Source: Burkholderia sp. Bp8992 (GTDB lineage Bacteria > Pseudomonadota > Gammaproteobacteria > Burkholderiales > Burkholderiaceae). From it: a stretch of DNA of 64,000 nt. Positions within the stretch are counted from its first letter, which is position 1. The number at the start of each line of letters is the position of its first letter. The DNA is taken from NCBI RefSeq assembly GCF_003853705.1, contig NZ_QTQI01000019.1:99781-163780 (forward strand), read 5' to 3'. Shown piece after piece: positions 1,854-59,806 of this stretch. The notes under the pieces were generated by a model. It had not been told where the DNA came from and made no database searches. It saw nothing but the letters and a program-made list of their open reading frames with translations. The translations under genes were made by a program, and so were the position numbers.

Positions 1854-1869
1854 CGCAAGAGATGTGCCA
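1854..1869 (-). promoter_or_regulatory. Sigma-54 promoter of the aldehyde dehydrogenase gene
   Basis: Reading the minus strand gives TGGCACATCTCTTGCG: GG and GC are separated by exactly ten bases and both -24 (TGGCAC) and -12 (TTGC) blocks match the sigma-54 consensus. Predicted transcription start is near 1843, about 27 bases before the ATG at 1816. The remaining sequence up to 2213 holds no gene. Confidence 0.85.
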
Positions 1870-1931
1870 TCAGATCTATTCGTGGCACTCAACCGATCTC
1901 TCAGGCCGACCATTGAACGATTTCGAATCGA

Positions 1932-1971
1932 TTGTCCGCACGGTAAGCACGATTGTCTTCTACACGAGCAC
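1932..1971. promoter_or_regulatory. Tandem candidate activator sites upstream of aldehyde dehydrogenase
   Basis: Two 19-base elements, TTGTCCGCACGGTAAGCAC (1932-1950) and TTGTCTTCTACACGAGCAC (1953-1971), repeat at 21-bp spacing, two helical turns. Both carry TGTC at one end and CAC at the other with the same spacing as the perfect dyad at 33807-33825. Their centres are about 98 and 119 bp upstream of the predicted sigma-54 start, the usual place for an enhancer-binding activator. Each is an imperfect dyad, so confidence rests on position and recurrence. Confidence 0.5.
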
Positions 1972-2171
1972 GAGGCTCGACGATCGTATCTGGCGTCTGA
2001 ATCACGTCACCCGCTGCGCTCGCGAATCAGGTTCGCAGCTTTGTCGGGCTCGGCGATCCGGTGTGCACGGCATCGCCTGATATTTTCGCGATCGCTGACG
2101 TCGTAAAAGCCATTCCGTCAGCAATCCCACAAACAATATGCCATCGAGCAAACGAGAGACGCGCTTGCATC

Positions 2172-2187
2172 GTCACAATCATGTGAC
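2172..2187. repeat. 16-bp inverted repeat downstream of the regulator gene
   Basis: GTCACA-ATCA-TGTGAC is a perfect six-base dyad 27 bases past the regulator stop codon. It could be a protein-binding site; it does not resemble the 19-bp motif and has no T-run expected of a terminator. Confidence 0.3.
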
Positions 2188-2213
2188 TCCGCTATCCGGC
2201 CTCACACGGTCTG

Positions 2214-3932
2214 TCAAGACGTGGTCATCCCCATTTGGGCAAGCCGTTTATATAGATATGACCGCGAGATTCCGAGGCTCGAAGCCACTCGCTTCTTGTT
2301 TCCGCCGAATTGCGTCATCGCCTTCCGGATGAGTTGCTCCTCGACCTGCTCCACTGCGCTACTCACGCGCATCGTGTCCGACTGGCCCAGTGAAGGCGGA
2401 TGCGACGACTGATTCGAGAACGTCGGAGCCATCACGGCCGCCTGAGGACCTGCATCCGACAGATCGATGATGCCGAAGTCGGTTGCATCAATGATGTCCG
2501 TGTCGCTGAATATGGCGGCCCGCTCGACCGTATGCATCAGCTGTCGCACGTTACCCGGCCATGAATGTGCTTGGAGATAGGCAAGCGCATGGTCCGACAG
2601 CCGCTTCGGCCGCTGCCCGTGCCGTTCCGCAAACTGGTCAAGCGCCAGATCCGCAAGCAGCGGGATATCGTCGAGTCGCTCGCGAAGCGCCGGTAGTCGA
2701 ATGACGACCGCTCCGATTCGATAGAACAAATCGAGCCGAAACGTCCCGTCGGCAATCATCGCTTCGAAGTTGCGGTTGCTCGCGCTGATCAAACGGAAAT
2801 TGGAGTTTCGTGCTTCGGTTCCGCCGACACGCTGGAACGACCCGTCCTGCAACACGCGCAGCAACTTCACCTGCACGTCGGCCGGCATGTCTCCGACCTC
2901 GTCGAAAAACAGGCTCCCGGCATCTGCCTGCTCTATCTTGCCGCGCCGGCCTTTGCGTTCAGCACCGGTGAATGACCCGCCCTCATAACCGAACAGCTCA
3001 CTCTCGACCAGCGTCGACGGTAATGCCGCCGCGTTCACCATCACCAGATTGCCATCCCGCCGGGCGCTTAACTTATGAATCGCGTGCGCCGCCAATTCCT
3101 TGCCCGTTCCGCTTTCCCCTGTCAGCAGAACCGGTACATCGAGCGGCGCAACCTTCACGATTTGCTGCTTCAAGCGCTGCATCGCCTGACTGTCCCCGAC
3201 AATCTGATCCAGACCGTAGCTCCGATTTTTCAGATCCTTCAGCTCGCGCCTGTAGTACGCCACCTCCGACTTCAATTTCGTCAACTCCGTCGAGAACGAC
3301 TGCAATTGCTCAGGTCCCTTGAACATGACTTGACCAATCGCGCCGACGGTCTCCCCACGAGCGTTCTTGATCGGATGTCGCGTGACAACCCGCGTCACGC
3401 CTCGCATCTCCTGAATTGCGCCAATCTCCGCCTTACCGGACGACGCGACCTGATCGAGCCGTGTATTTTCGATTACCTCGGATACGTGACGGCCAACCGA
3501 GCTGCCAGGTTTCATTCCGAAAAAGCGCTCATGGACGGGGCTGATATACCGCAGCACCCCGTCGCGATCGACGACGGTCAGCGCCTCGAATGGATTCGTC
3601 AGAAAATGACTGAGGATGTCGCTCGCGAAATCAACGGAACCGACGAATTCGAACAGCGCATCGCGTCCATCTCGAAGCAGCGCAACGAGTATCGTCGCGT
3701 CCGTGGCCGGTAACACGATTACCACAACCGACGAAGAATCGGGACCTTCAACCGAGAAAAGGTGTTGCTGGCGACGCCGTGCTTCGTGCCAACCCGCGAT
3801 GATTCTCGTCGCCATTTCGCGTTGCTCGACGATACCGGTCGCCATCATCTCCTTTCCGTCTGACGACAGAATCAAAACGCCACGCAGCGACGCCGCCGTC
3901 ACACCAGGCCTTGCCAAATCGAGTGTCTCCAT
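2214..3932 (-). CDS. PAS-containing sigma-54-dependent transcriptional activator (bacterial enhancer-binding protein)
   Basis: A 572-residue cytoplasmic activator. Residues 1-105 form an unassigned sensory segment, about 108-205 a PAS domain (the EALTVVDRDGVLRYISP block), about 207-237 a charged coiled coil, 243-475 the AAA+ ATPase, and about 535-570 a Fis-type helix-turn-helix (GGNKKRVASSLGISRSYLYK). Walker A is TGESGTGKE (271-279) and Walker B is LFFDE. The sigma-54 contact loop reads GSFTGA rather than the canonical GAFTGA, a known natural variant. The ATG at 3932 follows AGGGA at eight bases. It is the only sigma-54 activator in the window, which contains sixteen candidate sigma-54 promoters, so I infer it is their common activator, responding to a small ligand or CoA intermediate through the N-terminal/PAS region. 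A motif-like dyad at 3983-4001 suggests autoregulation. Confidence 0.93.
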   Translation of the reverse strand: METLDLARPGVTAASLRGVLILSSDGKEMMATGIVEQREMATRIIAGWHEARRRQQHLFSVEGPDSSSVVVIVLPATDATILVALLRDGRDALFEFVGSVDFASDILSHFLTNPFEALTVVDRDGVLRYISPVHERFFGMKPGSSVGRHVSEVIENTRLDQVASSGKAEIGAIQEMRGVTRVVTRHPIKNARGETVGAIGQVMFKGPEQLQSFSTELTKLKSEVAYYRRELKDLKNRSYGLDQIVGDSQAMQRLKQQIVKVAPLDVPVLLTGESGTGKELAAHAIHKLSARRDGNLVMVNAAALPSTLVESELFGYEGGSFTGAERKGRRGKIEQADAGSLFFDEVGDMPADVQVKLLRVLQDGSFQRVGGTEARNSNFRLISASNRNFEAMIADGTFRLDLFYRIGAVVIRLPALRERLDDIPLLADLALDQFAERHGQRPKRLSDHALAYLQAHSWPGNVRQLMHTVERAAIFSDTDIIDATDFGIIDLSDAGPQAAVMAPTFSNQSSHPPSLGQSDTMRVSSAVEQVEEQLIRKAMTQFGGNKKRVASSLGISRSYLYKRLAQMGMTTS

Positions 3933-3982
3933 GGTGTTATCCCTATGTCTCCGTGGCGATCATTGAATCGCTTTTTTTGGAT

Positions 3983-4001
3983 GTGTCTTCACCGCGGACA
4001 T
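3983..4001. promoter_or_regulatory. Candidate autoregulatory operator of the sigma-54 activator gene
   Basis: GTGTCTTCACCGCGGACAT matches the perfect dyad at 33807-33825 at 14 of 19 positions, including GTGTC and GCGGACA, and sits 51-69 bases before the activator start codon. No sigma-54 promoter is visible here, so binding may repress a sigma-70 promoter. The rest of 3933-4215 shows nothing further. Confidence 0.5.
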
Positions 4002-4215
4002 AGCCTATCACCACGATACCCAATGATTAGTGAGCCGAATCGACAGTACCTGTCTATCGGACTCATCAATCTTTCGACGTCACCGTGGCGACCGCCCGCA
4101 CTGCCGCTTCGTCGCTGACGAAACCGTACCTACGATGAGGATCGCCCATTCATCATACGTATCATTCCACTTTTCCCTATCCACTCGCATATCGCCGGAC
4201 GAACCGCTCGATTCA

Positions 4216-5641: not shown

Positions 5642-6622
5642 TCACTGCTTCGGCATGCCCACATAGGCGGCCAGCTTTGTTTTCTCGGCTTCATTTTTCA
5701 ACAGGAGATCCGTGAACTCTCGTGGTGACATGGTCACCGGCTCGAGTCCATAGCTCCGAAGGCGGTCTGCCAGCGCCTTGTCCGACAGCGCCGCCTGCAA
5801 CGCCGCCGACAGGCGTTGAACGACGGCCGGCGGCGTTCCGGCCGGCGCCATCAGCCCTTGATACAGAACGTAGCTGTAGTTGGGATAACCGGCCTCGGCG
5901 ACCGTCGGCACGTCCGGAAGGGCAGTGACGCGCTTCGGGGATGTCACCGCCAGCGCCCTCATCTTTCCTGCCTTCAGATACGGAGAACTGCTGATCAGCG
6001 CGTCGAAGATGACGGAGATGCGACCACTCATTACTTCAGGCAGCGCCTCCCCGTTGCCTTTGAACGGAACGTGCATCATCTTCAAGGCGCTCTGCTGGAG
6101 GAACGCAGCTGTCGCAAGGTGAGTCGTACTGCCCACGCCCGCGGATCCGTATGACAGCTTGTCCGGGTTCGCCTTCGCGTACGCGGCCAGTTCGCCGAAC
6201 GTCTTGAAGGGCTGGCTGGCGCCGACTTCGATCAAAAGCGGTGCCGCGACCGACGGCCCCACGCCCGTGAAGTCCTTGCGGAGAACGAAGCCCGGATCAC
6301 GCTTGACTGCTGACTGGAGGCCGAGCGTATCCGCCGAAGTGGCCAGCAGCGTATATCCATCCGGCGCCGCATCCTTCACATAGCGGATGCCAACCAGGCC
6401 ACCTCCGCCGCCGCGATTCTCGATAATCACCGGCTGCCCCAGGCTCTGCCCCAGCTTTGGCGCCAGCAAGCGGGTGACGGTGTCTGCCAGGCCACCCGGC
6501 GCCGTCGCAACCACAATATGCACCGGCTTGGTGGGGAATGGGTCCGACGCCGAAGCGGCCGCCGCGCTGAACAGGACGAATGTGCCCGCCGCCAGTCTGC
6601 GGCAAAACAATGCTTTCTTCAT
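5642..6622 (-). CDS. TctC/Bug-type periplasmic solute-binding protein (copy B)
   Basis: A 326-residue extracytoplasmic binding protein of tripartite tricarboxylate transport (TTT). It has a signal peptide cut near ASASD, then the signature KPVHIVVATAPGG and the IENRGGGGGLVGIRYV ligand loop. TTT receptors bind carboxylates and hand them to TctA/TctB permeases; the only tctA/tctB pair in the window lies 50 kb away at 55.7-57.7 kb. Copy A (6722-7702) lies exactly 1080 bp upstream and is closely similar, with long stretches identical at the DNA level. Signal peptides and ligand-loop residues such as the ATAPGGLAD versus AMAPGGMVD segment differ most, so the copies may bind different ligands. Both are intact. 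Confidence 0.9.
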   Translation of the reverse strand: MKKALFCRRLAAGTFVLFSAAAASASDPFPTKPVHIVVATAPGGLADTVTRLLAPKLGQSLGQPVIIENRGGGGGLVGIRYVKDAAPDGYTLLATSADTLGLQSAVKRDPGFVLRKDFTGVGPSVAAPLLIEVGASQPFKTFGELAAYAKANPDKLSYGSAGVGSTTHLATAAFLQQSALKMMHVPFKGNGEALPEVMSGRISVIFDALISSSPYLKAGKMRALAVTSPKRVTALPDVPTVAEAGYPNYSYVLYQGLMAPAGTPPAVVQRLSAALQAALSDKALADRLRSYGLEPVTMSPREFTDLLLKNEAEKTKLAAYVGMPKQ

Positions 6623-6656
6623 AAGAGAATCCTTTCTCCAAGACCTTGATTTCCTG

Positions 6657-6718
6657 CTACGCCGCGTCGAGGATGCCTCGCATGTCGACGGCGTTCGTCA
6701 CCTGCTTGCCGATCCCGC
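6657..6718 (-). pseudogene. Duplicated 3' remnant of the Fe-ADH-like gene
   Basis: Between the two tctC copies the minus strand encodes VTNAVDMRGILDAA then TAG, matching the true C-terminus VTNVADVRAILDAAW of the gene ending at 7734. The Trp codon TGG has become TAG. The remnant is a scar of the 1080-bp tandem duplication and starts immediately after the copy A stop codon. Confidence 0.8.
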
Positions 6719-6721
6719 CGG

Positions 6722-7702
6722 CTACTGCTTCGGCATGCCGACATAGGCGGCCAGCTTTGCCTTCCCGGCTTCGTTTTTCAAAAGAAGATTCGTAAACGCC
6801 GTGGGCGACATGGCCACCGGCTCGAGCCCGTAGCTTCGAAGGCGGTCCGCCAGCACCTTGTCCGACAGGGCCGCCTGCAACGCCGCCGACAGGCGTTGAA
6901 CGACGGCCGGCGGCGTTCCGGCCGGCGCCATCAGCCCTTGATACAGAACGTAGCTGTAGTCGGGATAACCGGCCTCGGCGACCGTCGGCACGTCCGGAAG
7001 GGCAGCGAGGCGCTTCGGGGATGTCACTGCCAGGGCTCTCAGCTTCCCTGCCTTCAGATAGGGAGCACTGCTGACTGGCGCGTCGAAGATGACGGAGATG
7101 CGTCCACTCATTACTTCAGGCAGCGCCTCCCCGTTGCCTTTGAACGGAACGTGCATCATCTTCAGAGCGGTCCGCTGCAGGAATGCGGCCGTCGCAAAGT
7201 GAGTCGCACTGCCCACGCCGCCCGATCCGTAGGTCAGCTTGTCCGGATTCGCCTTCGCGTACGCGGCCAGTTCGCCGAATGTCTTGAAGGGCTGGCCGGC
7301 GCCAACGTCGAGCAAAAGCGGCGATTCGACCATCGGCCCCACTCCCGCAAAGTCCCTGCGGAGAACAAAGCCCGGATCCTGGCGGACTGCCGACTGGAGG
7401 CCGAGCGTATCCGCCGAAGTGGCCAGCAGCGTATATCCATCCGGCGCCGCATCCTTCACATAGCGGATGCCGACCAGGCCGCCTCCGCCGCCGCGATTCT
7501 CGATAATCACCGGCTGCCCCAGGCTCTGCCCCAGCTTTGGCGCCAGCAAACGCGTGACCGTATCGACCATGCCGCCAGGCGCCATCGCCACCACGATATG
7601 CACGGGCTTGACCGGAAACTGGTCGGATGCCGAAGCCGTCGTTGCCCTGACCACCACGAAGGCGCACGCCGCGAATCGACAGTCAAAAGAAGCGTGCTTC
7701 AC
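6722..7702 (-). CDS. TctC/Bug-type periplasmic solute-binding protein (copy A)
   Basis: A 326-residue TTT receptor, the upstream and probably ancestral copy because it directly follows the intact Fe-ADH-like gene (31-base gap). Features are a signal peptide ending in ASASD, the KPVHIVVAMAPGGMVDTVTRLL opening and the IENRGGGGGLVG loop. The two copies are mosaic: several hundred bases in the centre are almost identical while the first 60 and some internal residues have diverged, suggesting gene conversion or selection on parts of the ligand pocket. Part of the operon started at the sigma-54 promoter 11019-11034. Confidence 0.9.
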   Translation of the reverse strand: MKHASFDCRFAACAFVVVRATTASASDQFPVKPVHIVVAMAPGGMVDTVTRLLAPKLGQSLGQPVIIENRGGGGGLVGIRYVKDAAPDGYTLLATSADTLGLQSAVRQDPGFVLRRDFAGVGPMVESPLLLDVGAGQPFKTFGELAAYAKANPDKLTYGSGGVGSATHFATAAFLQRTALKMMHVPFKGNGEALPEVMSGRISVIFDAPVSSAPYLKAGKLRALAVTSPKRLAALPDVPTVAEAGYPDYSYVLYQGLMAPAGTPPAVVQRLSAALQAALSDKVLADRLRSYGLEPVAMSPTAFTNLLLKNEAGKAKLAAYVGMPKQ

Positions 7703-8921: not shown

Positions 8922-9126
8922 TGTCTGTATGCGCGAACGCGTGGAACGAGGTTGCCCATCAACTTGCAATTGACGTGCCATGCTTGCCGCAGGAACGTCG
9001 CAGTCTACGGGTGCCGACAAACTGTCCACGCCGGCGACGGCCTGCCCGATTCGTGTCCACCGCGGCGACACGTGCCGCTCGCCGCGCCTTCATCGCTGCC
9101 GCACCGGTGCGTGCAGAATGGCCCGC

Positions 9127-11018: not shown

Positions 11019-11034
11019 TGCAGGTTCCGTACCA
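11019..11034 (-). promoter_or_regulatory. Sigma-54 promoter of the HIBADH/Fe-ADH/TctC/PrpD operon
   Basis: The minus strand reads TGGTACGGAACCTGCA, with GG and GC ten bases apart and two departures from consensus. Predicted start is near 11008, about 52 bases before the ATG at 10956. It is divergent from the sigma-54 promoter at 11212-11227. Confidence 0.7.
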
Positions 11035-11085: not shown

Positions 11086-11107
11086 GAACGTCGCTATTGC
11101 TCGTGCA

Positions 11108-11144
11108 TGTCGTCGGGAAACACAGTTGTCCGTATCAGCGACGG
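11108..11144. promoter_or_regulatory. Candidate activator sites between divergent sigma-54 promoters
   Basis: Two weak relatives of the 19-bp motif lie side by side: TGTCGTCGGGAAACAC (11108-11123) and TTGTCCGTATCAGCGACGG (11126-11144). Their centres are close to 105 bp upstream of the predicted minus-strand (11008) and plus-strand (11239) starts respectively. Confidence 0.4.
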
Positions 11145-11211: not shown

Positions 11212-11227
11212 TGGCATCGCAATTGCT
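11212..11227 (+). promoter_or_regulatory. Sigma-54 promoter of the LivK-like/SDR operon
   Basis: TGGCATCGCAATTGCT has GG and GC ten bases apart and full TGGCAY/TTGCW blocks. Predicted start is near 11239; the gene begins at 11406, leaving a leader of about 167 bases. Confidence 0.8.
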
Positions 11228-11405: not shown

Positions 11406-12605
11406 ATGGCGAAACATTGGAACACGGCCAAAGCGGCGGCCTGCGCAGCGACGCTCGCCGCATCCTGGGCGGTTTGCACGCCGGCGGCAGCACAATCGTG
11501 CGAAGTCAAGATCGGCGTGCTCGGCCCGATGAGCGGCGGTGGATCGTCGCAGGGCCTCGCCGAGAAAGCCGCCGTCGAGTTCGAGGCCGCCTATACCAAT
11601 GCCAATGGCGGCCTGCAAGTCGGCAACCGCAAGTGCAAGGTGGTGCCGACGAGTTATGACTCGCAAGCGACCGCTGCCGGTGGAGCGGCCGCCGCCAACT
11701 ATTTCGCGAGCCAGGGGGTTCATGCGGCTGTGGGCCCGGTTCCGTCGGTCGAACTGGCGGGATTCAAGCCCATCGCGAAGCGGTACGGCATCGTGAATTT
11801 CGCGCACTCGTACGCGAAGGATGTCATCAACACGCAATATCCGCTCGCCTTCGCGGTATCACTCACGCCGCAGGTCTGGGGTGCCTATGTCGTGAAAGCC
11901 GCAAGGGACGAGTTCAAATTCAACAAGGTGATCGTTGTTGCACCGAACGACCAGGGCGGCACCGATGCAGGCAAAGCACTGGTCCAGGAGTACGAAAAGG
12001 CCGGTGCCAAGGCGACGCTCGAATTCTATCAACGCGGCACCACGAACTTCGCGCCCATCGTGGCCCGCCTGATGAGCATGGGCCCCGAATCGGTGGAGTT
12101 CGGACCGATGCCGCCGGGTGAAGCCGGCGTCCTAGTCAAGCAAATGCTAGGCGCCGGATACACGGGCGCGTTCGGTGACCTCGGCAGCGGCGCAGAGGTG
12201 GTGCTGAACACCGTGGGAGACATTTCAACCCAGAAGGCGTTCTACTGGCTCGAACTCGCTCCGCTGGACGACCCCGGCATCCAGCGTCTGAATGCCGACT
12301 ACGAGCGCGTGATGAAGTCGAAGGTGCCGGACAACACGCTGTTCTATCCGTCCGCACTCGCCGCGGAGCATCTTCTGCGTGCGATCTCGCGAGCCGGAAC
12401 CGATCAGGATGGCCAAAAGATCGCGGCCGCGTTGCGAGAGACGACGCCGGAATCCCGCTACCTCGGCAAAGGCGGATGGCGCGGCAAGGCGCAATACGGA
12501 ATCAATCAGCAGCTCGCCTTCCCGATCGGGATGGGCGTGATCGCGAACGGTAAAAGGCAAAAGGATCGACGCATCGCCATTGCGTCGGAACCCGCGACGC
12601 CGTGA
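11406..12605 (+). CDS. Periplasmic binding protein of a branched-chain-amino-acid-type (Liv) ABC transporter
   Basis: A 399-residue type I periplasmic binding protein. It has a signal peptide (MAKHWNTAKAAA... ending PAAA-Q) and the family opening VKIGVLGPMSGGGSS, then NANGGLQVGNRKCKVV and the two-lobed fold. Start is the ATG at 11406, six bases after AGGAG; a TTG at 11403 would be too close to the ribosome binding site. The livHMGF genes lie 2.1 kb away in the opposite direction under their own sigma-54 promoter and are the natural partners. In catabolic clusters such proteins usually bind aromatic or aliphatic carboxylates rather than leucine, so the ligand here is probably the pathway substrate (inference). 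Confidence 0.9.
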   Translation: MAKHWNTAKAAACAATLAASWAVCTPAAAQSCEVKIGVLGPMSGGGSSQGLAEKAAVEFEAAYTNANGGLQVGNRKCKVVPTSYDSQATAAGGAAAANYFASQGVHAAVGPVPSVELAGFKPIAKRYGIVNFAHSYAKDVINTQYPLAFAVSLTPQVWGAYVVKAARDEFKFNKVIVVAPNDQGGTDAGKALVQEYEKAGAKATLEFYQRGTTNFAPIVARLMSMGPESVEFGPMPPGEAGVLVKQMLGAGYTGAFGDLGSGAEVVLNTVGDISTQKAFYWLELAPLDDPGIQRLNADYERVMKSKVPDNTLFYPSALAAEHLLRAISRAGTDQDGQKIAAALRETTPESRYLGKGGWRGKAQYGINQQLAFPIGMGVIANGKRQKDRRIAIASEPATP

Positions 12606-12788
12606 ACCTCGGATAGTGCGGTTAATCGCCGAAGGCCGTATGGGGCGTCCGCGCTACCGCGCGACTTTCGGCGAATCTCTCGATCGCCACGGCATCGCGG
12701 AGCAACGAGACCACATCCGGAATCCGTGCGTCTCGACCGCGTTGCCCGACCGCACGTGGTGGCTTCGACATGAAAAGGAAAAGGTGAC

Positions 12789-13553
12789 ATGAAGCGTTTT
12801 GAAGGGAAAACGATCCTCGTAACGGGAGCCGGCAGCGGGATTGGCGCGGCGTGTGTTCGACGTCTGTTCGACGAGGGTGCATTGGTCGTCGCAGCAGACG
12901 TACGCAAGGGCGATGTTGACAAGGTCGCCTCGGAATTCGGCCCGACTAACCGTATCCACGCCGTCGCGATGGACGTGTCGAATCGCGACGACGTCAACGC
13001 CATCGTGGCCGACGCCGCTCGACGATTCGGCCCGCTTCACGGGCTCGTGAACTCCGCCGGCATCCGCGGCGTGGGCAACGTGCTGGATTTCGATCCGGAG
13101 GCGTGGCATCGCGTCCTGTCAGTGAATCTCGATGGAACGTTCAACGTCTGCCAGGCATTTGCACGCGTCGCGACGGAAGCGAAAACACCCGCGGCAATCG
13201 TCAACGTTTCGTCGGGGGCGGGAATCCGCGGCGTACCGAACCGCCTCGCATACTCCGCGTCGAAGTTCGGCGTCTCGGGCATCACGCATACCATGGCGCT
13301 CGAACTTGCCTCTTACGGTATCCGCGTGAACGCCGTAGCGCCGGGGATGATTCGCACCCCGATGACAGCCGTGATGTTCGAGGATCCGGAAAACGAAAAG
13401 CGCATTCGCGCGGCGCATCCGATCGGCCGCGAGGGAGAGCCTGAAGAGGTTGCCGCCGCCATCGCGTTTCTGCTGTCGGATGATGCCAGCTTCGTCACGG
13501 GCATCGTCATGCCCGTGGACGGCGGCTCCACGGCGGGCATTCCATCTCACTGA
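12789..13553 (+). CDS. Short-chain dehydrogenase/reductase (SDR)
   Basis: A 254-residue classical SDR using NAD(H) or NADP(H). It shows the cofactor motif TGAGSGIG (residues 12-19), the NSAG variant of NNAG, the active-site Ser in VNVSSGAG, YSASK with catalytic Tyr and Lys, and the C-terminal VDGG. An Asp (AADVR) at the end of the second strand suggests NAD. It follows the binding-protein gene by 183 bases, which hold no gene or clear promoter, so the two are probably cotranscribed. It resembles 3-oxoacyl and 2-hydroxycyclohexanecarboxyl-CoA dehydrogenase-type SDRs; a hydroxyacyl or ring-alcohol oxidation is likely, but the substrate cannot be fixed. Confidence 0.9.
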   Translation: MKRFEGKTILVTGAGSGIGAACVRRLFDEGALVVAADVRKGDVDKVASEFGPTNRIHAVAMDVSNRDDVNAIVADAARRFGPLHGLVNSAGIRGVGNVLDFDPEAWHRVLSVNLDGTFNVCQAFARVATEAKTPAAIVNVSSGAGIRGVPNRLAYSASKFGVSGITHTMALELASYGIRVNAVAPGMIRTPMTAVMFEDPENEKRIRAAHPIGREGEPEEVAAAIAFLLSDDASFVTGIVMPVDGGSTAGIPSH

Positions 13554-18382: not shown

Positions 18383-18398
18383 TGCAATGCCCATGCCA
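18383..18398 (-). promoter_or_regulatory. Sigma-54 promoter of the livHMGF-amidohydrolase operon
   Basis: The minus strand reads TGGCATGGGCATTGCA, a full TGGCAY-N5-TTGCA match. Predicted start is near 18372. The interval 18399-18584 shows no gene and no other clear signal. Confidence 0.82.
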
Positions 18399-18750: not shown

Positions 18751-20430
18751 CTACAGGGCCGGGTAATTCGGCCCGCCGCCGCCTTCCGGCGTGACCCACA
18801 CGATGTTCTGCGTCGGATCCTTGATGTCGCAGGTCTTGCAGTGCACGCAGTTCTGCGCGTTGATCACCAGGCGATCGCTGCCGTCGTCGTTCTTCACGAA
18901 TTCGTACACGGCTGCCGGGCAGAAGCGCCCCTCCGGCCCCGCGTACGTGCGCAGGTTCACGTTCACCGGCACGCTCGCGTCCTTCAGCGTCAGGTGCGCC
19001 GGCTGGTTCTCCTCGTGGTTCGTGTTCGAGATGAACACCGACGACAGCCGGTCGAACGTCAGCTTGCCGTCCGGCTTCGGGTATTCGATCGGCTCGCACT
19101 GCGACGCCGGCTTCAGCATCTCGTGGTCCGCATGCTGGTGATGCAGCGTCCACGGCACGTTGCCGCCCATCACCTTCTGCTCGAGCCCGACCATCAGCGT
19201 GCCGAGGTACAGGCCCTTCGCCATCCACTGCTTGAAGTTGCGCGCGCGGTACAGCTCCGTGTACAGCCACGATTGCTTGAACGCGTCCGGGTACGCATTG
19301 AGCTCGTCCGACTGGCGGCCTGCCTGCACCGCGTCGAACGCGGCGTCGGCGGCCAGCATGCCGGTCTTGATCGCCGCGTGGCTGCCCTTGATCCGCGATG
19401 CGTTCAGGAAACCCGCGTCGTCACCGATCAGCGCGCCGCCCGGGAACACCGTCTTCGGCAGCGACAGCAGGCCGCCGGCCGTGATCGCGCGCGCGCCGTA
19501 CGACACGCGCTTGCCGCCTTCGAGGAACGCGCGGATCGACGGATGCGTCTTGTAGCGCTGGAATTCCTCGAACGGCGACAGGTACGGGTTCGTGTAGCCC
19601 AGGCCCACCACGAAGCCGACCACCACCTGGTTGTTGTCCATGTGATACAGGAACGAGCCGCCGTACGTGTCGGACTTCAGCGGCCAGCCGGCCGTGTGGA
19701 TCACGAGGCCCGGCTTGTGCTTGGCCGGGTCGATTTCCCACAGTTCCTTGATGCCGATCCCGTAGGCCTGCGGATCGGCGTTCGCGTCGAGCTTGAACTT
19801 GGAGATCAGCTGGCGGCCGAGGTGGCCACGGCAGCCTTCGGCGAACAGCGTGTACTTCGCGTGCAGCTCCATGCCGAGCTGGAAGTTCTCGGTCGGCTCG
19901 CCGTCCTTGCCCACGCCCATGTTGCCGGTCGCGACGCCCTTCACCGAGCCGTCGTCGTTATAGAGAATCTCCGCGGCCGGGAAGCCCGGGAAGATCTCGA
20001 CGCCGAGCGCTTCGGCCTGCGCGCCGAGCCAGCGCGTGACGTTGCCCAGCGAAATCACGTAGTTGCCGTGGTTCTTGAAGTTCGCGGGCAGCGCCCAGTT
20101 CGGCGTGGTGACCGCGCTCTTCTCGGACAGGAACAGGAAGCGGTCTTCCGTCACCTCGACGGTGAGCGGCGCGCCTTGTTCCTTCCAGTCGGGGAACAGT
20201 TCGTTGATCGCGCGCGGGTCCATCACCGCGCCCGACAGGATGTGCGCGCCGATCTCGGAACCCTTCTCGAGCACGCACACGCCGATCTCGGTGCCTTTCT
20301 CGGCGGCCAGCTGCTTGAGCCGGATCGCCGCCGACAGCCCGGCGGGGCCGCCGCCGACGATCACGACGTCGTATTCCATGGATTCGCGCTGTTGCGCTGC
20401 GTCACTATGCACGACAGCTGAATTTGTCAT
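18751..20430 (-). CDS. Electron-transfer flavoprotein:ubiquinone oxidoreductase (ETF-QO)
   Basis: A 559-residue membrane-associated FAD and 4Fe-4S enzyme that passes electrons from reduced ETF to ubiquinone. The FAD site is YDVVIVGGGPAGLSAAIRL near residue 20; the C-terminal ferredoxin-like domain has the cysteine block QNCVHCKTCDIKDPTQNI plus an upstream Cys in GRFCPAAVYE. The middle part carries the hydrophobic membrane-contact loop. Length is normal. Its codon use looks more strongly GC-biased than its neighbours, fitting a conserved, well-expressed gene. It is the electron sink for the acyl-CoA dehydrogenase at 53452 and for EtfAB at 28799-30527. Confidence 0.96.
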   Translation of the reverse strand: MTNSAVVHSDAAQQRESMEYDVVIVGGGPAGLSAAIRLKQLAAEKGTEIGVCVLEKGSEIGAHILSGAVMDPRAINELFPDWKEQGAPLTVEVTEDRFLFLSEKSAVTTPNWALPANFKNHGNYVISLGNVTRWLGAQAEALGVEIFPGFPAAEILYNDDGSVKGVATGNMGVGKDGEPTENFQLGMELHAKYTLFAEGCRGHLGRQLISKFKLDANADPQAYGIGIKELWEIDPAKHKPGLVIHTAGWPLKSDTYGGSFLYHMDNNQVVVGFVVGLGYTNPYLSPFEEFQRYKTHPSIRAFLEGGKRVSYGARAITAGGLLSLPKTVFPGGALIGDDAGFLNASRIKGSHAAIKTGMLAADAAFDAVQAGRQSDELNAYPDAFKQSWLYTELYRARNFKQWMAKGLYLGTLMVGLEQKVMGGNVPWTLHHQHADHEMLKPASQCEPIEYPKPDGKLTFDRLSSVFISNTNHEENQPAHLTLKDASVPVNVNLRTYAGPEGRFCPAAVYEFVKNDDGSDRLVINAQNCVHCKTCDIKDPTQNIVWVTPEGGGGPNYPAL

Positions 20431-25192: not shown

Positions 25193-25208
25193 TGCAATGA
25201 ACATGCCA
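25193..25208 (-). promoter_or_regulatory. Sigma-54 promoter of the thiolase gene
   Basis: The minus strand reads TGGCATGTTCATTGCA, a complete TGGCAY-N5-TTGCA match ending 41 bases before the chosen ATG. Confidence 0.85.
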
Positions 25209-35186: not shown

Positions 35187-35202
35187 TGGCATGGCGATTG
35201 CA
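35187..35202 (+). promoter_or_regulatory. Sigma-54 promoter of the crotonase gene at 35247
   Basis: TGGCATGGCGATTGCA is a complete TGGCAY-N5-TTGCA match. Predicted start near 35213, 34 bases before the ATG. Confidence 0.85.
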
Positions 35203-36249: not shown

Positions 36250-36304
36250 GTGTCTGCACGGAAATCACCTGAGCACGGCCAACCACTGTCGTCGCCGCGG
36301 ACAC
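36250..36304. promoter_or_regulatory. Candidate activator sites upstream of the BadI-like operon
   Basis: CTGTCGTCGCCGCGGACAC (36286-36304) matches the perfect dyad at 15 of 19 positions, centred 109 bp upstream of the predicted start. A weaker partner, GTGTCTGCACGGAAATCAC (36250-36268), resembles the site at 1932-1950. Confidence 0.65.
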
Positions 36305-36377
36305 TTGCCGGCGGTTCGACCAGATCCGGGTACCGCGTTTTCCGGACGCAATCGAGATCGCCCGCCACACCCCCGTT

Positions 36378-36393
36378 TGGCACGAAGCTTGCA
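36378..36393 (+). promoter_or_regulatory. Sigma-54 promoter of the BadI-like/CoA ligase/SDR operon
   Basis: TGGCACGAAGCTTGCA matches the consensus exactly. Predicted start near 36404, leader of about 136 bases to the ATG at 36540. Confidence 0.9.
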
Positions 36394-37319: not shown

Positions 37320-37346
37320 CGCGCACGACTCCTGGAGCTCCCGACC

Positions 37347-39017: not shown

Positions 39018-39140
39018 CATATTTCCGATCCGCAATTCTGCATGTGTTGCGAGGGCTGAAAGTCGAACCGCGCGTCGATGGCCGCGTACGACTGTCGACT
39101 CGCTCTCCAACACCGCAATCGTTTCCCTGGAGTAGTCTTC

Positions 39141-39884
39141 ATGACCCGTGATTGCATAGTCGTAACCGGCGCGAGCCGTGGCATTGGCGCCGGCATCGCG
39201 CTAGCGCTGGCCCAGCAGGGCCTCCATGTGGCGTGTCTGTCACGTTCGGGCGCGCTGCCGCCATTTTCCGACGTCAGTCCCGACGTGTCCGCGCGCTGGC
39301 TGCCGCGCACCGCGGACGTCATGCGTCCGGACGACCTCAAGACAGTACTGGGAGCGCTCGCCCAAGAAGGATGGCGTATCGTCGGCCTCGTCAATAACGC
39401 GGGATTGCACATCGACGCCCCGTCAGCGGAGCTTTCTCTCGATGAGTGGCATCAGGTGATGGACATGAACGCGACGTCTGTCATCGCTGCATGTCAGGCC
39501 GCCTACCCCCATCTCGTATCGGCAGGTAATGCGCTGATCGTCAATATCGGCTCCTTCTTCGACAAGCTCGGCGTCAAACGCAACCTCGCGTACTGTGCGA
39601 GCAAGGCAGCCGTCGGAGCCATCACCCGCTGTCTGGCCGTCGAGTGGGCCAGCAAGGGAATTCGCGTCATCAACATCGCGCCCGGTTACATTCACACTGA
39701 CCTGAACGCCGACATGATCGCGTCAGGTTCCCTGTCTGCGTATCTCGAAAAGCGGATTCCGCGGGGTCGTCCCGGTAGTGCTGAGGAAATCGGCACGCTT
39801 GTGGCGACGCTGTTTGCGCATGGAACGACGTTCCTGACCGGGGAAACGATTTACGTTGACGGCGGGCAAGGAATCGCACACTGA
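39141..39884 (+). CDS. Short-chain dehydrogenase/reductase
   Basis: A 247-residue SDR with TGASRGIGAG, the NNAG motif (VNNAGLHID), Ser in NIGSFFDKLG (Ser-Phe rather than Ser-Ser), YCASK and VDGGQG. The active triad is intact. Third gene of the BadI-like operon; by analogy with BadH it may oxidise a 2-hydroxy ring acyl-CoA to the ketone that the MenB/BadI-like enzyme cleaves. GGAG lies nine bases before the ATG. Confidence 0.9.
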   Translation: MTRDCIVVTGASRGIGAGIALALAQQGLHVACLSRSGALPPFSDVSPDVSARWLPRTADVMRPDDLKTVLGALAQEGWRIVGLVNNAGLHIDAPSAELSLDEWHQVMDMNATSVIAACQAAYPHLVSAGNALIVNIGSFFDKLGVKRNLAYCASKAAVGAITRCLAVEWASKGIRVINIAPGYIHTDLNADMIASGSLSAYLEKRIPRGRPGSAEEIGTLVATLFAHGTTFLTGETIYVDGGQGIAH

Positions 39885-39994: not shown

Positions 39995-40031
39995 TTGTCC
40001 CCAAGTACATCACTGTCGAAATCAAAAACAC
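39995..40031. promoter_or_regulatory. Weak candidate activator sites upstream of the porin promoter
   Basis: TTGTCCCCAAGTACATCAC (39995-40013) and CTGTCGAAATCAAAAACAC (40013-40031) keep the TGTC and CAC ends at motif spacing in tandem. Other positions match poorly. Confidence 0.3.
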
Positions 40032-40081
40032 GCTCGAACACGATGACACGGACGCACAACGCAATAGCGCGCCGCGCGCCG

Positions 40082-40423
40082 TCACGGCTGGCGCGCGACA
40101 CATGACATCAGCCTGACACAGCGCTGTCTCACTGGCACGGACGTTGCGTTATCGATAACAGCTGCCACGTATGACCGAATCGTTCGGTGACGCCAGCAAA
40201 TAAAAGAACGCATCAATTGGAGACTTCCGTGACGATCAGCCCTCCTTCGTAATCGCACGTCGACCCGCATCGACGCCTGGCGAGCATCCGCTGCCCGCAC
40301 TCGATCATTCTCATCCGAACGCACCGTAACCGACAAGGCGTGCGTGACCTGCCACGCGTTGTCCTCGACCCGAAGGAGATGTTCGCAGAAGCACGTCAAT
40401 TCAATTTCTCGCCATTCAGACAT
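40082..40423 (-). pseudogene. Possible gene remnant upstream of the porin
   Basis: The minus strand between 40423 and about 40250 encodes a protein-like segment (MSEWREIELTCFCEHLLRVE, then DNAWQVTHALSV), loosely reminiscent of the end of NTF2-like or ring-hydroxylase beta subunits. It lacks a ribosome binding site and degenerates toward 40082. The sigma-54 promoter 40133-40148 overlaps it on the other strand. Treat as uncertain. Confidence 0.2.
40133..40148 (+). promoter_or_regulatory. Sigma-54 promoter upstream of the porin gene
   Basis: TGGCACGGACGTTGCG matches TGGCACG-N4-TTGC. Predicted start near 40159, leaving an unusually long leader of about 420 bases to the porin ATG; a different short transcript cannot be excluded. 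Confidence 0.65.
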
Positions 40424-41813: not shown

Positions 41814-42212
41814 CGAATATTCCCGCTTGTCGTCGCTTCCGTCAACGGAAGATTATTTTCCATTCGAGACTGGCCGACTGCCGCTACCCGTTCAGCTTTG
41901 CACGACTGCCAGCGACCCTCCTCCGAAGCGTTCCGACGTCCGAATCCCCCGCAAGCAGCGCTTTCTCTCTCTATGGCACCAAACTCCCAAAAATGTCCTT
42001 ACCGAAATCAATCTCAATTTTTCGTGTACTCATCGACGACACAAATAAATTCCATCCACAAGCCTTCATCATCGAATAACAAATAAATGTTTTTGAAATA
42101 AAAACTACATTCCATTTTTTTCTTGACTACATCGTCACCCCTATATAACGTCGCAAACGTTACAACCGCAACATAAATATCGATTTAAAAAAATCCATTG
42201 GGAGACATTTCC
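41814..42212 (+). promoter_or_regulatory. AT-rich leader and promoter region of the GH3 gene
   Basis: This stretch, above all 42030-42195, is markedly AT-richer than the rest of the window. TTGACT (42123-42128) and TATAAC (42144-42149) form a possible sigma-70 promoter with a short 15-base spacer. GCAAACGTTAC (about 42152-42163), with a central AACGTT, resembles LacI/GalR-type operators. No sigma-54 site is visible. Confidence 0.4.
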
Positions 42213-48311: not shown

Positions 48312-48327
48312 AGCAATCATCGTGCCT
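48312..48327 (-). promoter_or_regulatory. Sigma-54 promoter of the MaoC operon
   Basis: The minus strand reads AGGCACGATGATTGCT: only the first base departs from consensus. Predicted start near 48301. Confidence 0.8.
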
Positions 48328-48377: not shown

Positions 48378-48416
48378 ATGTCGCGACGGGCAACACTGTG
48401 TCGCCGTCGCCGACAC
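48378..48416. promoter_or_regulatory. Tandem activator sites between divergent sigma-54 promoters
   Basis: GTGTCGCCGTCGCCGACAC (48398-48416) matches the perfect dyad at 15 of 19 positions and is centred 106 bp from the predicted minus-strand start and 98 bp from the plus-strand start. ATGTCGCGACGGGCAACAC (48378-48396) keeps both ends and lies 20 bp away on the same helix face. Confidence 0.68.
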
Positions 48417-48478
48417 GCGGCACGCCACCCGCAAATGGATAGCTGCGCGCCGCGCCGTCCGAAGTGAAGAAGCGCTTG

Positions 48479-48494
48479 TGGCACGACGATTGCT
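48479..48494 (+). promoter_or_regulatory. Sigma-54 promoter of the DUF2889/MFS operon
   Basis: TGGCACGACGATTGCT matches the consensus exactly. Predicted start near 48505, 58 bases before the GTG start. Confidence 0.87.
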
Positions 48495-48562: not shown

Positions 48563-49132
48563 GTGCCTTTATCCGAGCCGAGCGGCCGTCGCGAACTCCA
48601 TCACCGCGTGATCGATATGCGCACGTATGCGCGCGATGATGGTCTCTACGATGTCGAAGCACATCTCGTCGATACCAAACCGTTCGATTTCCAGCATTCG
48701 GGCCGAGCGGATCCGCTGCCGGCTGGCGCGCCGCTGCATGACCTCCGGGTCCGCGTCACCGTCGACGATCAATACGTGATTCATCGCATAGAGGCAGCAT
48801 CGGACGCGACGCCGTTCGCGTTGTGCAAGGAAGCCGAAACGACTTTGAACGTGCTCGTCGGGCAGCGTATCGGCAAGGGGTGGTCGTCCGTCGTCAAAGA
48901 CAACCTGCGGGGACCGGCGAGCTGCACGCATCTGAGGGAAGTACTGATTCCGCTCGCGACGACCATGATGCAGGGGGTTCGCGGGGTGACCGGCGCGCCG
49001 AGCCAGTTCGTCGACGCGAACGGCAAACCGACCATCCTGAACAGTTGCTATGCGTATGCGGATCATCGCGATGTCGTAAAGCAGCGGTGGCCTCAGCACT
49101 TCCGATCGACGACGCGGTCCACCGCCGACTGA
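48563..49132 (+). CDS. DUF2889 domain protein
   Basis: A 189-residue cytoplasmic protein of the DUF2889 family, function unknown. It starts at GTG 48563, eight bases after GGGAG. The family core runs from RRELHHRVIDMRTYARDDG through LYDVEAHLVDTKPFDF to GPASCTHLREVLIPLATTMMQG, where His and Cys cluster. Its stop overlaps the MFS start (TGATG). It shares a divergent control region with the MaoC operon. Confidence 0.85.
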   Translation: MPLSEPSGRRELHHRVIDMRTYARDDGLYDVEAHLVDTKPFDFQHSGRADPLPAGAPLHDLRVRVTVDDQYVIHRIEAASDATPFALCKEAETTLNVLVGQRIGKGWSSVVKDNLRGPASCTHLREVLIPLATTMMQGVRGVTGAPSQFVDANGKPTILNSCYAYADHRDVVKQRWPQHFRSTTRSTAD

Positions 49133-50661
49133 TGCATACCGTGGTCCCGCCGGAGACCGCGCCGACCGTCCCTCACGTCCCCTTCATCAGCACCGTAACC
49201 ATCATGGGCTGCACTCCGCATCTGCCACAACGCAACCGCACGACAAGCGGCACGCATGACCGCAGGCTGACAATCACGCTCTGGCTGGTCGCGGCCGGGT
49301 TCTTCATGCAGACGCTCGATACCACGATCGTCAATACGGCACTACCGGGGATGGCGCGCAGCCTCGGCGAAGCGCCACTCCATATGCAATCGGTGGTCGT
49401 CGCCTACTCGCTCACGATGGCGCTGATGATTCCGGTTTCCGGATTTCTGGCTGATCGACTCGGCACGCGCCGGGTATTTCTTTCCGCCATCGTCGTCTTC
49501 ACGCTCGGATCGCTGTTATGCGCGAATGCGCAAGCGCTTGGGCAACTGGTCCTGTTCCGTGTCGTGCAGGGTATAGGTGGGGCGATGCTGTTGCCGATCG
49601 GTCGGCTCGCCGTTATTCGATCGTTTCCGCCCGAGCGCTACCTGCCGGCCCTCACGTTCGTTGCGATTCCTGGCCTGGTCGGACCGCTGATTGGTCCGAT
49701 GCTCGGAGGCTGGCTCACCGAATCCGCATCATGGCACTGGGTATTTCTGATCAACGTGCCGATCGGCGCGCTCGGGTGCGCGGCGACGGCGATCTACATG
49801 CCCGGAGAACCGTTGCCTGGGTCCGCTCGATTCGACTTCCTCGGTTATCTGATGCTCGCGATCCCGATGCTGTCGATCACGCTTGCGCTCGACGGAATTG
49901 CGGAATTCGGGCTGACCCGTCGCGCAGTGATCGGCCTCGTCGCGCTGACATTCGCCGGCATCGTCATGTACTGCGTCCATGCGACCCGCGTCCCGGACCC
50001 TCTGTTTTCGCTGAAATTGTTTGACATCCGCACGTTCAGGATCGGTTTGCTGGGCAATCTGCTCACGAGACTTGGCGGTGGAGCCATGCCGTATCTGCTG
50101 CCGTTGCTGCTCCAGGTAAGCCTCGGCTACTCTCCTTTTCACGCCGGCATGATGATGCTACCCGTTGCGGCCGCCGGAATGGCGGTGAGGCCTCTGGCCG
50201 TTCGTTTGATCACGGCTTGCGGCTATCGCACGGTTCTACTGGTCAATACGCTCGCAATCGGTTTGACGATCTCGAGCTTCGCGTTGATATCGCCGCCGCA
50301 GCCGCCGTGGCTCCAGGTCACGCAGTTTGCGTTGTTCGGCGCCGTCAATGCGTTGCAGTTCACCGCGATGAATGCGATCACGCTGAGGGACCTCGGAACG
50401 GCAGGCGCGAGCAGCGGCAACAGTCTCTTCTCTCTCGCGCAGATGCTATCGATGAGTCTCGGCGTGACGATTGCCGGTACGTTGCTCGACCAGTTCATGG
50501 AGACGTTTGGCCGCCACACGCATTCCCAGACGCTGACGGCCTTTCACGCGACGTTTGCGTGCATCGGCATCATCACCGCGTCGTCGGCACTGGTCTTCGC
50601 ACGGTTGACGCCTGAAGCAGGTGTGATGACCGTTCGCAGCAGCCCTGCCAAGGAGGGGTGA
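49132..50661 (+). CDS. MFS transporter, DHA2 (EmrB-like) family
   Basis: A 509-residue inner-membrane proton-driven transporter with about 14 hydrophobic helices from residue 45 on. Signature parts are FMQTLDTTIVNTALPGMARSLG (motif D1 region), GFLADRLGTRRVF (motif A) and GPMLGGWL (motif C of exporters). I start it at the ATG that overlaps the DUF2889 stop by one base; a later Met (MGCTPHLPQ) is possible. Probably exports the pathway substrate, a toxic intermediate or a related compound. Confidence 0.9.
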   Translation: MHTVVPPETAPTVPHVPFISTVTIMGCTPHLPQRNRTTSGTHDRRLTITLWLVAAGFFMQTLDTTIVNTALPGMARSLGEAPLHMQSVVVAYSLTMALMIPVSGFLADRLGTRRVFLSAIVVFTLGSLLCANAQALGQLVLFRVVQGIGGAMLLPIGRLAVIRSFPPERYLPALTFVAIPGLVGPLIGPMLGGWLTESASWHWVFLINVPIGALGCAATAIYMPGEPLPGSARFDFLGYLMLAIPMLSITLALDGIAEFGLTRRAVIGLVALTFAGIVMYCVHATRVPDPLFSLKLFDIRTFRIGLLGNLLTRLGGGAMPYLLPLLLQVSLGYSPFHAGMMMLPVAAAGMAVRPLAVRLITACGYRTVLLVNTLAIGLTISSFALISPPQPPWLQVTQFALFGAVNALQFTAMNAITLRDLGTAGASSGNSLFSLAQMLSMSLGVTIAGTLLDQFMETFGRHTHSQTLTAFHATFACIGIITASSALVFARLTPEAGVMTVRSSPAKEG

Positions 50662-55534: not shown

Positions 55535-55550
55535 AGCAAACATCGCGCCA
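55535..55550 (-). promoter_or_regulatory. Sigma-54 promoter of the ECH/acyl-CoA dehydrogenase operon
   Basis: The minus strand reads TGGCGCGATGTTTGCT, one change (A to G) from consensus. Predicted start near 55524, 44 bases before the ATG. Confidence 0.75.
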
Positions 55551-55590
55551 ACACCGGAATCTCCCTATATCGACACTTGCAGCGCAGCGA

Positions 55591-55629
55591 GTGTCCGCAC
55601 AAAAGACAGTGTGTTGCCCGCCGCGACAA
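55591..55629. promoter_or_regulatory. Tandem candidate activator sites
   Basis: GTGTCCGCACAAAAGACAG (55591-55609) is nearly identical to the livH site at 18585. GTGTTGCCCGCCGCGACAA (55611-55629) follows at 20 bp. Centres are about 76 and 96 bp upstream of the predicted start. Confidence 0.55.
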
Positions 55630-57915: not shown

Positions 57916-57929
57916 ACTGCCGATAGGGA

Positions 57930-59159: not shown

Positions 59160-59197
59160 GTTTTTTGTCAGGAAATTGGTAGCAGCAGCATTCGCAC

Positions 59198-59213
59198 GGC
59201 AAGTCCCGTGCCA
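59198..59213 (-). promoter_or_regulatory. Sigma-54 promoter of the CaiB gene at 57930
   Basis: The minus strand reads TGGCACGGGACTTGCC, matching TGGCACG-N4-TTGC. Predicted start near 59187. Confidence 0.82.
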
Positions 59214-59296
59214 TACGGGCGCTGATCGTCTTCCCAAACACGTTTGCCAGATAACCGCCCCGTGCGGCTAGCAAGCGCACACCTCGACTCGCATGC

Positions 59297-59356
59297 GTGT
59301 CGTTGGCATGGTCAGCATGTCGACGAAACGCATGGACATGTCGTCGGGGCAGACAC
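59297..59356. promoter_or_regulatory. Cluster of candidate activator half-sites
   Basis: GTGTCGTTGGCATGGTCAG (59297-59315), an ATGTC...GACAT inverted pair (59317-59339) and ATGTCGTCGGGGCAGACAC (59338-59356, 13 of 19 matches) lie 110-170 bp upstream of the predicted start. The rest of 59357-59790 shows no gene; open frames there lack ribosome binding sites. Confidence 0.5.
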
Positions 59357-59790
59357 CGCCGCCGATGCTCGCTGAAAATCTCGTTGAGCCGCGACGTCGA
59401 CAACGGCATCACGCGAGCTTTTTTATCGAATAAAACGCGTTCTACCGTGCAGATGGTTCGGAACACCTGACATGCGGCGGCGAAATGGAGTTTCGCCGTC
59501 GGTATGGGTGCGATGGCGAACAGCGCGAAATACACGCCAGTTCATGCGGCGGCGGGCATCGTTGGCTTCGCGGATTGACGATCAGTGGAAGGGGCGCGGA
59601 AACGCTACTTGTGCATTGCGAATCCGCCAACTGCTGGCTCAAGGGTATCCGTCTGCGGCGAAATGTGATACCGATCCGGTCGTGCGATCTTGCCGTGCAC
59701 ATGGTTCAGACGCGCGCTCGCTGCGAAACGATTTCGACCGTGCATAGCTTTGCACGCAGCCGGAGCGGACCACATCACCACAAACGTGCG

Positions 59791-59806
59791 TGGCATGGAA
59801 TCTGCG
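59791..59806 (+). promoter_or_regulatory. Weak candidate sigma-54 promoter of the CMD-family gene
   Basis: TGGCATGGAATCTGCG has a good -24 block and GG/GC spacing but two changes in the -12 block. Predicted start near 59817. No clear upstream dyad. Confidence 0.4.

Follow-up and report, generated by a model that had tools for sequence, protein, structure and literature searches.

Catabolic enhancer-binding proteins (EBPs) of the sigma-54 system usually control one to a few operons, and activators of the XylR/DmpR type serve few promoters; global EBPs such as NtrC and NifA control more units. The stretch analyzed here, 64 kb of Burkholderia sp. Bp8992 (contig NZ_QTQI01000019.1; the whole stretch is referred to as the window), carries an EBP gene at 2214–3932 and a series of -24/-12 promoter sites in front of catabolic genes. 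We propose, with a probability of roughly 0.8, that it represents a local sigma-54 regulon in which one PAS-AAA+-Fis activator would control the catabolism of a cyclohexanecarboxylate-like acid.

Enhancers of the form TGT-N10-12-ACA are used by EBPs with a Fis-type helix-turn-helix (HTH), among them NifA, FhlA, PrdR and others, according to PMC6615313. The window activator shares with this type the AAA+ domain, the Fis HTH, the TGT/ACA palindrome, the -24/-12 promoters and a regulon adjoining the regulator gene. The number of targets differs: among 263 Clostridiales EBPs in that study (PMC6615313) 170 control a single operon and the others between two and six, whereas 13–17 units would belong to the window activator. 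In the original prediction a sigma-54 regulon of such size for fatty-acid-like or alicyclic catabolism had been called unfamiliar. Like XylR/DmpR activators the protein is one-component, presumed to sense a ligand and catabolic, but it has a PAS sensor, no XylR_N or V4R match, and many promoters.

BadR and AliR of Rhodopseudomonas palustris are MarR-type regulators. The window contains the same core set as the Rhodopseudomonas ali/bad pathway (enzyme names as in PMC6449761 and PMC4547698), namely acyl-CoA ligase, acyl-CoA dehydrogenase (ACAD), hydratase, short-chain dehydrogenase/reductase (SDR) and a BadI/MenB-type hydrolase, but its enzymes fall under the AliA, BadI and cyclohexanecarboxyl-CoA (CHC-CoA) dehydrogenase cut-offs and control would be exerted by a PAS-EBP and sigma-54. 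In the openly licensed literature searched we found no paper joining sigma-54 or RpoN with cyclohexanecarboxylate terms, and the matches listed from it included no description of the cluster. None of the parts is new in kind; what is unusual is the dispersed layout and how many units one local activator would control. As a compact example that can be tested, the cluster may show a complete catabolic programme coordinated by one enhancer. It is also a pointer to a ring-opening pathway under sigma-54 control that is uncharacterised and may act on alicyclic acids, for instance naphthenic acids.

Promoter sites and the common enhancer

The reference genome (G001, 8.6 Mb) contains the window on contig C51 at 233961–297962 with 99.9% identity; base composition of the window is 61.7% GC. 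The pattern TGGCAY-N5-TTGC occurs 12 times in exact form, two more than the ten matches claimed originally, compared with a mean of 0.33 and a maximum of 2 in 100 dinucleotide shuffles. Genome-wide 56 exact sites were counted, with 15 for the reversed pattern as a control, and 12 of the 56 sit in the window, which makes up 0.74% of the genome (binomial P about 1e-14). For the exact pattern, the check on clustering that had been suggested thus came out positive. With a sigma-54 weight matrix 18 window sites reached at least 12 bits (4.3 in Markov sequence) and 14 reached at least 14 bits (1.5 in Markov sequence). One of them, 36770–36785 on the minus strand (12.2 bits), is intragenic and was dropped. 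The remaining 17 sites with GG-N10-GC and TGGCAY/TTGC blocks, 12 exact and 5 near, are all oriented toward a gene, as had been predicted. They cover each of the sixteen genes listed in the original prediction and one more site that it missed, the exact match at 8965–8980 on the minus strand before the iron-type alcohol dehydrogenase (Fe-ADH) genes. The predicted distance of 30–180 bases to the start codon holds for most sites, and is exceeded at the first enoyl-CoA hydratase (ECH1, 187 bp), LivH (330 bp) and the porin (about 430 bp, from 40133–40148 to 40579).

A gapped-word count over the 17 upstream regions brought up the palindrome GTGTC-N9-GACAC, to which a 21-bp matrix was then fitted. 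The enhancer matrix scores at least 12 bits at 15 of the 17 sites, centred 50–196 bp upstream of the -24 element (72–96 bp in 9 of the 15 paired sites), and each of the divergent promoter pairs 11019/11212, 33675/33896 and 48312/48479 has one palindrome per pair. With inverted TGT/ACA ends, a spacer of 11 and this distance from the -24 element the palindrome has the features of the TGT-N10-12-ACA class. The predicted elements are the following; bases kept refer to B. guangdongensis.

1854–1869, minus strand: exact -24/-12 site, aldehyde dehydrogenase gene (ALDH, 398), 14.9 bits
1952–1972: weak enhancer candidate for the 1854 site, 6 of 21 bases kept
2214–3932, minus strand: one-component sigma-54 activator with N-terminal alpha/beta part, PAS, AAA+ (GSFTGA) and Fis HTH
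3982–4002, unstranded: enhancer about 60 bp 5' of the activator start, 18.6 bits, 19 of 21 bases kept
8965–8980, minus strand: exact -24/-12 site, Fe-ADH/TctC/TctC/PrpD genes (8921–4216), 19.1 bits
9052–9072, unstranded: enhancer for 8965–8980, perfect GTGTC-N9-GACAC, 18.0 bits
11019–11034, minus strand: -24/-12 site, double HIBADH-family gene (9127), 13.2 bits, with B. guangdongensis counterpart
11106–11126, unstranded: enhancer common to divergent 11019–11034 and 11212–11227, 17.0 bits, 19 of 21 kept
11212–11227, plus strand: exact -24/-12 site, LIV-type binding protein and SDR genes (11406–13553)
18383–18398, minus strand: exact -24/-12 site, LivHMGF-amidohydrolase genes (18053–13672), 18.8 bits
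18584–18604, unstranded: enhancer of the LivH unit, 20.0 bits, 19 of 21 kept
25193–25208, minus strand: exact -24/-12 site, PcaF-type thiolase, PntAB and electron transfer flavoprotein (ETF)-quinone oxidoreductase (ETF-QO) genes (25152–18751)
25359–25379, unstranded: enhancer of the thiolase unit, 15.6 bits, 20 of 21 kept
33675–33690, minus strand: exact -24/-12 site, enoyl-CoA hydratase (ECH), ADP-forming CoA ligase and EtfBA genes (33488–28799)
33806–33826, unstranded: enhancer common to divergent 33675–33690 and 33896–33911, perfect arms, 23.6 bits
33896–33911, plus strand: exact -24/-12 site, quinone oxidoreductase (QOR)-type gene (33992)
35104–35124, unstranded: enhancer for 35187–35202, 13.2 bits, 10.2 when left out, 19 of 21 kept
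35187–35202, plus strand: exact -24/-12 site, enoyl-CoA hydratase gene (35247)
36285–36305, unstranded: enhancer for 36378–36393, 22.7 bits
36378–36393, plus strand: exact -24/-12 site, BadI-like hydrolase, AMP ligase and SDR genes (36540–39884), identical in B. guangdongensis
36540–37319, plus strand: BadI/MenB-type ring hydrolase, core enzyme
40012–40032, unstranded: weak enhancer candidate for 40133–40148, 12.5 bits; leave-one-out picks another 21-mer, P 0.03
40133–40148, plus strand: exact -24/-12 site, porin gene (40579), identical in B. guangdongensis
48312–48327, minus strand: -24/-12 site, MaoC, ALDH2 and thiolase-like genes (48271–44569), 14.8 bits, identical in B. guangdongensis
48397–48417, unstranded: enhancer common to divergent 48312–48327 and 48479–48494, perfect arms, 20.4 bits
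48479–48494, plus strand: exact -24/-12 site, DUF2889 and MFS genes (48563–50661)
55535–55550, minus strand: -24/-12 site, ECH4-ACAD-HBD-HBD-CaiB genes (55480–50763), 14.5 bits, identical in B. guangdongensis
55590–55610, unstranded: enhancer for 55535–55550, 19.0 bits
57883–57898, minus strand: -24/-12 site, TctB-TctA genes (57710–55696), no enhancer found, 12.2 bits
59198–59213, minus strand: exact -24/-12 site, CaiB-type CoA transferase gene (57930)
59337–59357, unstranded: enhancer for 59198–59213, 19.0 bits, 10 of 21 bases aligned (rearranged stretch)
59791–59806, plus strand: weak -24/-12 site, 115-amino-acid (aa) gene (59899–60246), no enhancer in the window, 13.2 bits

Since the enhancer matrix had been fitted on the same upstream regions, it was tested in three ways: by leave-one-out, against the rest of the genome and by position shifts. 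Leaving out one intergenic region at a time gave P values from <0.001 to 0.03 in 12 of 12 regions. Elsewhere in the reference genome none of 42 distinct exact sigma-54 sites (44 listed minus two repeated contexts) had an enhancer of at least 12 bits, the best scoring 11.6, so that in this genome the enhancer does not generally accompany sigma-54 sites. Sites and enhancers are paired at 16 of 19 sites of the window stretch compared with 1.0 by shifted controls; no site was paired among 14 on 340 kb of contig C1 or among 22 on the remaining 275 kb of C51.

B. guangdongensis contains a syntenic cluster in which all 17 sites have a counterpart of at least 12 bits. In 15 intergenic stretches that were aligned, 148 of 153 positions of the -24/-12 core and 89 of 104 of the enhancer arms are identical, while the remaining intergenic sequence matches at 3541 of 5212; core identity is therefore 97% against 68% in the flanks. 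Exceptions to the conservation of the enhancers are those of ALDH (6/21) and of the second CaiB stretch (10/21, a rearranged region). Pairing in B. guangdongensis is 18 of 22, which none of 2000 shifts reached, and in the 20 kb examined of a further genome, G021, the layout is repeated with 8 of 10 sites paired. With the enhancer shared by 15 of the 17 sites, its lack, at 12 bits, at the 42 other exact sites and the recurring layout, the prediction of one window-wide regulon gains support at the level of sequence. The DUF2889 gene (48563–49132) accompanies the cluster in B. guangdongensis, G021 and Variovorax Sphag1AA.

That the sites are artefacts of chance or composition in a GC-rich window has to be considered, as 9.1 matches with one mismatch at most are expected in the window, a range that includes the weak sites 57883 and 59791. 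We regard this as extremely improbable: the counts of exact and of high-scoring sites far above expectation, the 17 counterparts in B. guangdongensis and the conservation of the core stand against it, and shuffles, genome counts and shifted controls refute it for the entire set.

The weakest sites are 57883 and 59791, where no enhancer was found, and 1854, whose enhancer candidate is unconserved and was not relied on. The B. guangdongensis counterpart of 57883 has 16.1 bits, likewise without an enhancer, and that of 59198 has its own enhancer of 18.1 bits. Site 59791 is identical in B. guangdongensis, where a 12.2-bit enhancer lies 151 bp away; the gene behind it (59899–60246) is real, encoding 115 aa, and is kept in that genome. 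Judging from these motifs 13 units appear well supported, 1854 and 40133 appear weak, and 57883 and 59791 are without an enhancer; the membership of these up to four sites in the regulon is less certain.

Further candidates were looked at. No hidden -24/-12 site accompanies the enhancer at 3982 (best 0.7 bits nearby) or the one at 42023 (best 7.7 bits); the latter is a 15.8-bit palindrome at 42023–42043 upstream of a GH3 glycosidase gene. The PaaH-type gene 26743–28290 has no -24/-12 site upstream in the window (best 6.5 bits), and its orthologue in B. guangdongensis has a strong site and an enhancer (183173). The gene for a LIV-type binding protein downstream of it (25271–26650) was not found there in B. 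guangdongensis. At 2129–2143, 3' of the activator gene, lies a -24/-12 remnant with one mismatch; the corresponding place in B. guangdongensis is occupied by a site (208317) together with an additional HIBADH-family gene (208410–209279).

The activator and its homologues

The predicted position and nature of the activator gene were borne out. The protein matches PF00158 with 212 bits (cut-off 20.2), PF25601 and PF02954 (residues 527–566), and by its domains it is an ordinary sigma-54 EBP. Its N-terminal half gave only a weak PAS_4 match at E ≤0.001, and no XylR_N or V4R. A PAS fold is present at residues 115–204 of the AlphaFold model (VIA-align), and residues 12–90 received no fold assignment in a search dominated by the PAS part. 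The translated loop is GSFTGA, a variant of GAFTGA; the same exchange of alanine 2 for serine is found in the functional LevR, according to PMC3162934. The PrdR equivalog NF041552 scored 360 bits, below its cut-off of 795. The genome has 27 other EBP matches, all at most 47% identical to the activator, and among them no other close member of its family. Two genes for sigma-54 (PF04552) were detected, at C87:38565–39032 and C96:32153–32617, and either copy could serve the regulon.

In the proposed regulon the activator would probably sense a small molecule, substrate or CoA/acid intermediate, via its N-terminal and PAS domains. Its Fis-type HTH would bind the GTGTC-N9-GACAC palindromes and DNA looping would bring it to RNA polymerase-sigma-54 at the -24/-12 promoters 50–196 bp away, which may then be opened by ATP hydrolysis through the GSFTGA loop. 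The 13 well supported to 17 units would respond together, supplying transporters, porin, CoA activation, ring opening, beta-oxidation, ETF/ETF-QO and transhydrogenase. With an enhancer lying 60 bp upstream of its own start (3982–4002), the activator gene may be autoregulated.

The promoters might be real and yet depend on several activators, the local one serving only some of them. The 27 other EBP matches would provide candidates, and two sites are without an enhancer, with one or two more being doubtful. The occurrence of one palindrome at 15 of 17 sites against 0 of 42 other exact sites, and the lack of another close family member in this genome, make such a division unlikely.

We compared 27 loci of relatives with an activator at least 50% identical, examining up to 10 kb of flank. 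A BadI-like gene lies within the flank in 18 of the 27, always on the strand opposite to the activator; its usual companions are AMP ligase, ECH, SDR, ACAD and two HBD genes, often also CaiB and QOR. In L047 and L050 other genes intervene between activator and BadI-like gene. In 25 loci with a usable activator start, 18 have an enhancer of at least 11 bits within 200 bp of it, two of these overlapping the presumed start, at a chance rate of about 1% per 200 bp. A divergent -24/-12 site is present within 400 bp in 18 of the 25.

These data bear on the question of whether the palindrome is bound by another regulator, for example the LysR (60650) or TetR (61875) protein, with the sigma-54 activator acting elsewhere. 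The link between palindrome and activator is one of co-occurrence, and the palindrome does not consistently follow the HTH core from one homologue to another. Its presence near the start of the activator in 18 of 25 homologues, which belong to several genera, and a spacing that fits the class of Fis-HTH activators described in PMC6615313, speak against it, and we consider this very unlikely.

Several points weigh against the regulon under one activator. The weights of the sigma-54 matrix are approximate. As the enhancer matrix was fitted on these upstream regions, only the leave-one-out and cross-genome figures are independent; when left out, 3 of the 12 regions (35187, 40133 and 1854) score only 8.9–10.2 bits, and the best enhancer score outside the window, 11.6 bits, is above them. 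The palindrome itself occurs with up to one mismatch at 214 places in the reference genome (control 79), and with up to two mismatches 47 times in the window versus 35 in shuffled sequence, where 6 of 100 shuffles reach 47. Seven of the 25 loci with an activator of the same family have no strong enhancer match. The relative G059 pairs 1 of 5 sites, no better than chance (115 of 2000 shifts). L042, L046, L047, L052 and L100 have a near-identical HTH core and score below 11 bits with the enhancer matrix. Finally, the cyclohexanecarboxylate equivalogs stay under their cut-offs (AliA 238/792, BadI 211/468, CHC-CoA dehydrogenase 333/650 bits). Because the HTH core recurs, slightly changed, in homologues bearing the enhancer and also in some that lack a strong match, it was not used as proof, and the odds of the proposed regulon were slightly lowered. 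It is a guess that the non-matching loci (G059 and the 7 of 25) use other enhancer subtypes. Four perfect palindromes elsewhere in the genome have no -24/-12 site of at least 10 bits in the stretches examined; what appears special in the window is the pairing of the palindrome with -24/-12 sites, not the palindrome itself.

Compact and dispersed layouts

The putative ring-opening pathway is shared by Burkholderia, Paraburkholderia, Caballeronia, Pandoraea, Cupriavidus, Variovorax and Noviherbaspirillum. Within Burkholderia the same four genomes, one of them G059, carry both the activator and the BadI-like gene: 4 of 65 in one search, and in another the four hits from this genus among 101. A compact divergon with a homologous activator and core enzymes as in the window exists in G059, Pandoraea, Cupriavidus and Variovorax OK212, where a single strong -24/-12 site precedes an unbroken run of the core genes, whereas the core of the window is split over several units. 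In G059 the activator faces a run of ten genes with one strong site (459123). The divergon of G059 has two -24/-12 sites that overlap in opposite orientation (L208:9116–9138) and no strong match to the enhancer matrix, and another palindrome may serve there. The core genes are split over the 36378, 55550 and 33896 units in the window and B. guangdongensis, likewise in G021 as far as examined; the dispersed layout adds genes for transport, porin, ETF, ETF-QO and transhydrogenase as well as more CoA genes, and every unit has a promoter of its own. Three relatives seem to be intermediate, with 6–8 paired sites: 8 of 20 in Variovorax Sphag1AA, 6 of 12 in C. basilensis and 6 of 17 in Variovorax OK212, counts that none of 2000 shifts reached in any of them. 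Since the C. basilensis contig carries two activators of the family, its sites may be split between them.

The simplest reading of these layouts is that an ancestral divergon was dispersed, with promoter and enhancer being multiplied; the direction from compact to dispersed is presumed. We lean slightly toward the more specific view that one Burkholderia lineage broke an ancestral activator-facing operon into 13–17 units, each of which kept or gained a -24/-12 site and, at most of them, the same enhancer. If true, few catabolic sigma-54 regulons under one local one-component activator would be larger, and the cluster would offer a natural experiment on the multiplication of enhancer-driven promoters. 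Its relatives show both compact and dispersed layouts of the same core genes.

Enzymes and probable substrate

The hydrolase at 36540–37319 scores 211 bits with TIGR03210 and 221 and 243 bits with menB models, all under the cut-offs, and its best PDB matches are MenB, with the SFDGGYG motif aligned. Genera with the BadI-like hydrolase use ubiquinone, and MenB is therefore not expected in them. The thiolase 23947 passes the cut-off for pcaF, the 3-oxoadipyl-CoA thiolase (703 versus 597 bits). Ligase and ACAD resemble enzymes of cyclohexanecarboxylate breakdown and the CaiB transferases resemble succinate-glutarate CoA-transferase, all under the cut-offs. A dedicated EtfBA, matched by family, and ETF-QO would fit the acyl-CoA dehydrogenase steps. 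ETF-QO, PntAB, LivHMGF, TctA, MFS, LysR and TetR were named by eye from translations, not by family match. No oxygenase turned up among the window proteins scanned against family models. The route may comprise activation, desaturation, hydration, oxidation, hydrolytic ring opening to a dicarboxyl-CoA and beta-oxidation.

Because the models of the ring pathway stay below cut-off the substrate can only be guessed at; an alicyclic carboxylic acid resembling cyclohexanecarboxylate is the most likely one. The sigma-54 regulon could also hold with a non-alicyclic substrate such as a branched or dicarboxylic acid or a terpenoid or steroid fragment. The sub-threshold scores of ligase, ACAD and hydrolase are compatible with this, and CaiB transferases and Tct parts suit dicarboxylates; the BadI/MenB-type hydrolase with SFDGGYG near the activator in 18 of 27 loci, mostly together with an acyl-CoA ligase, argues for a ring. 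We hold the non-alicyclic substrate to be possible, though the less probable choice. Of the predicted fatty-acid-like or alicyclic catabolism, the alicyclic half is favored by this hydrolase and the 3-oxoadipyl-CoA-type thiolase.

Two duplications concern genes of these units. The two tandem TctC/Bug binding-protein genes at 5642–7702 are recent duplicates with 87% DNA identity, and ETF-QO (18751–20430) has a second, ETF-QO-like copy about 220 kb away on the same contig (C51:29212–30841) with 94% DNA identity.

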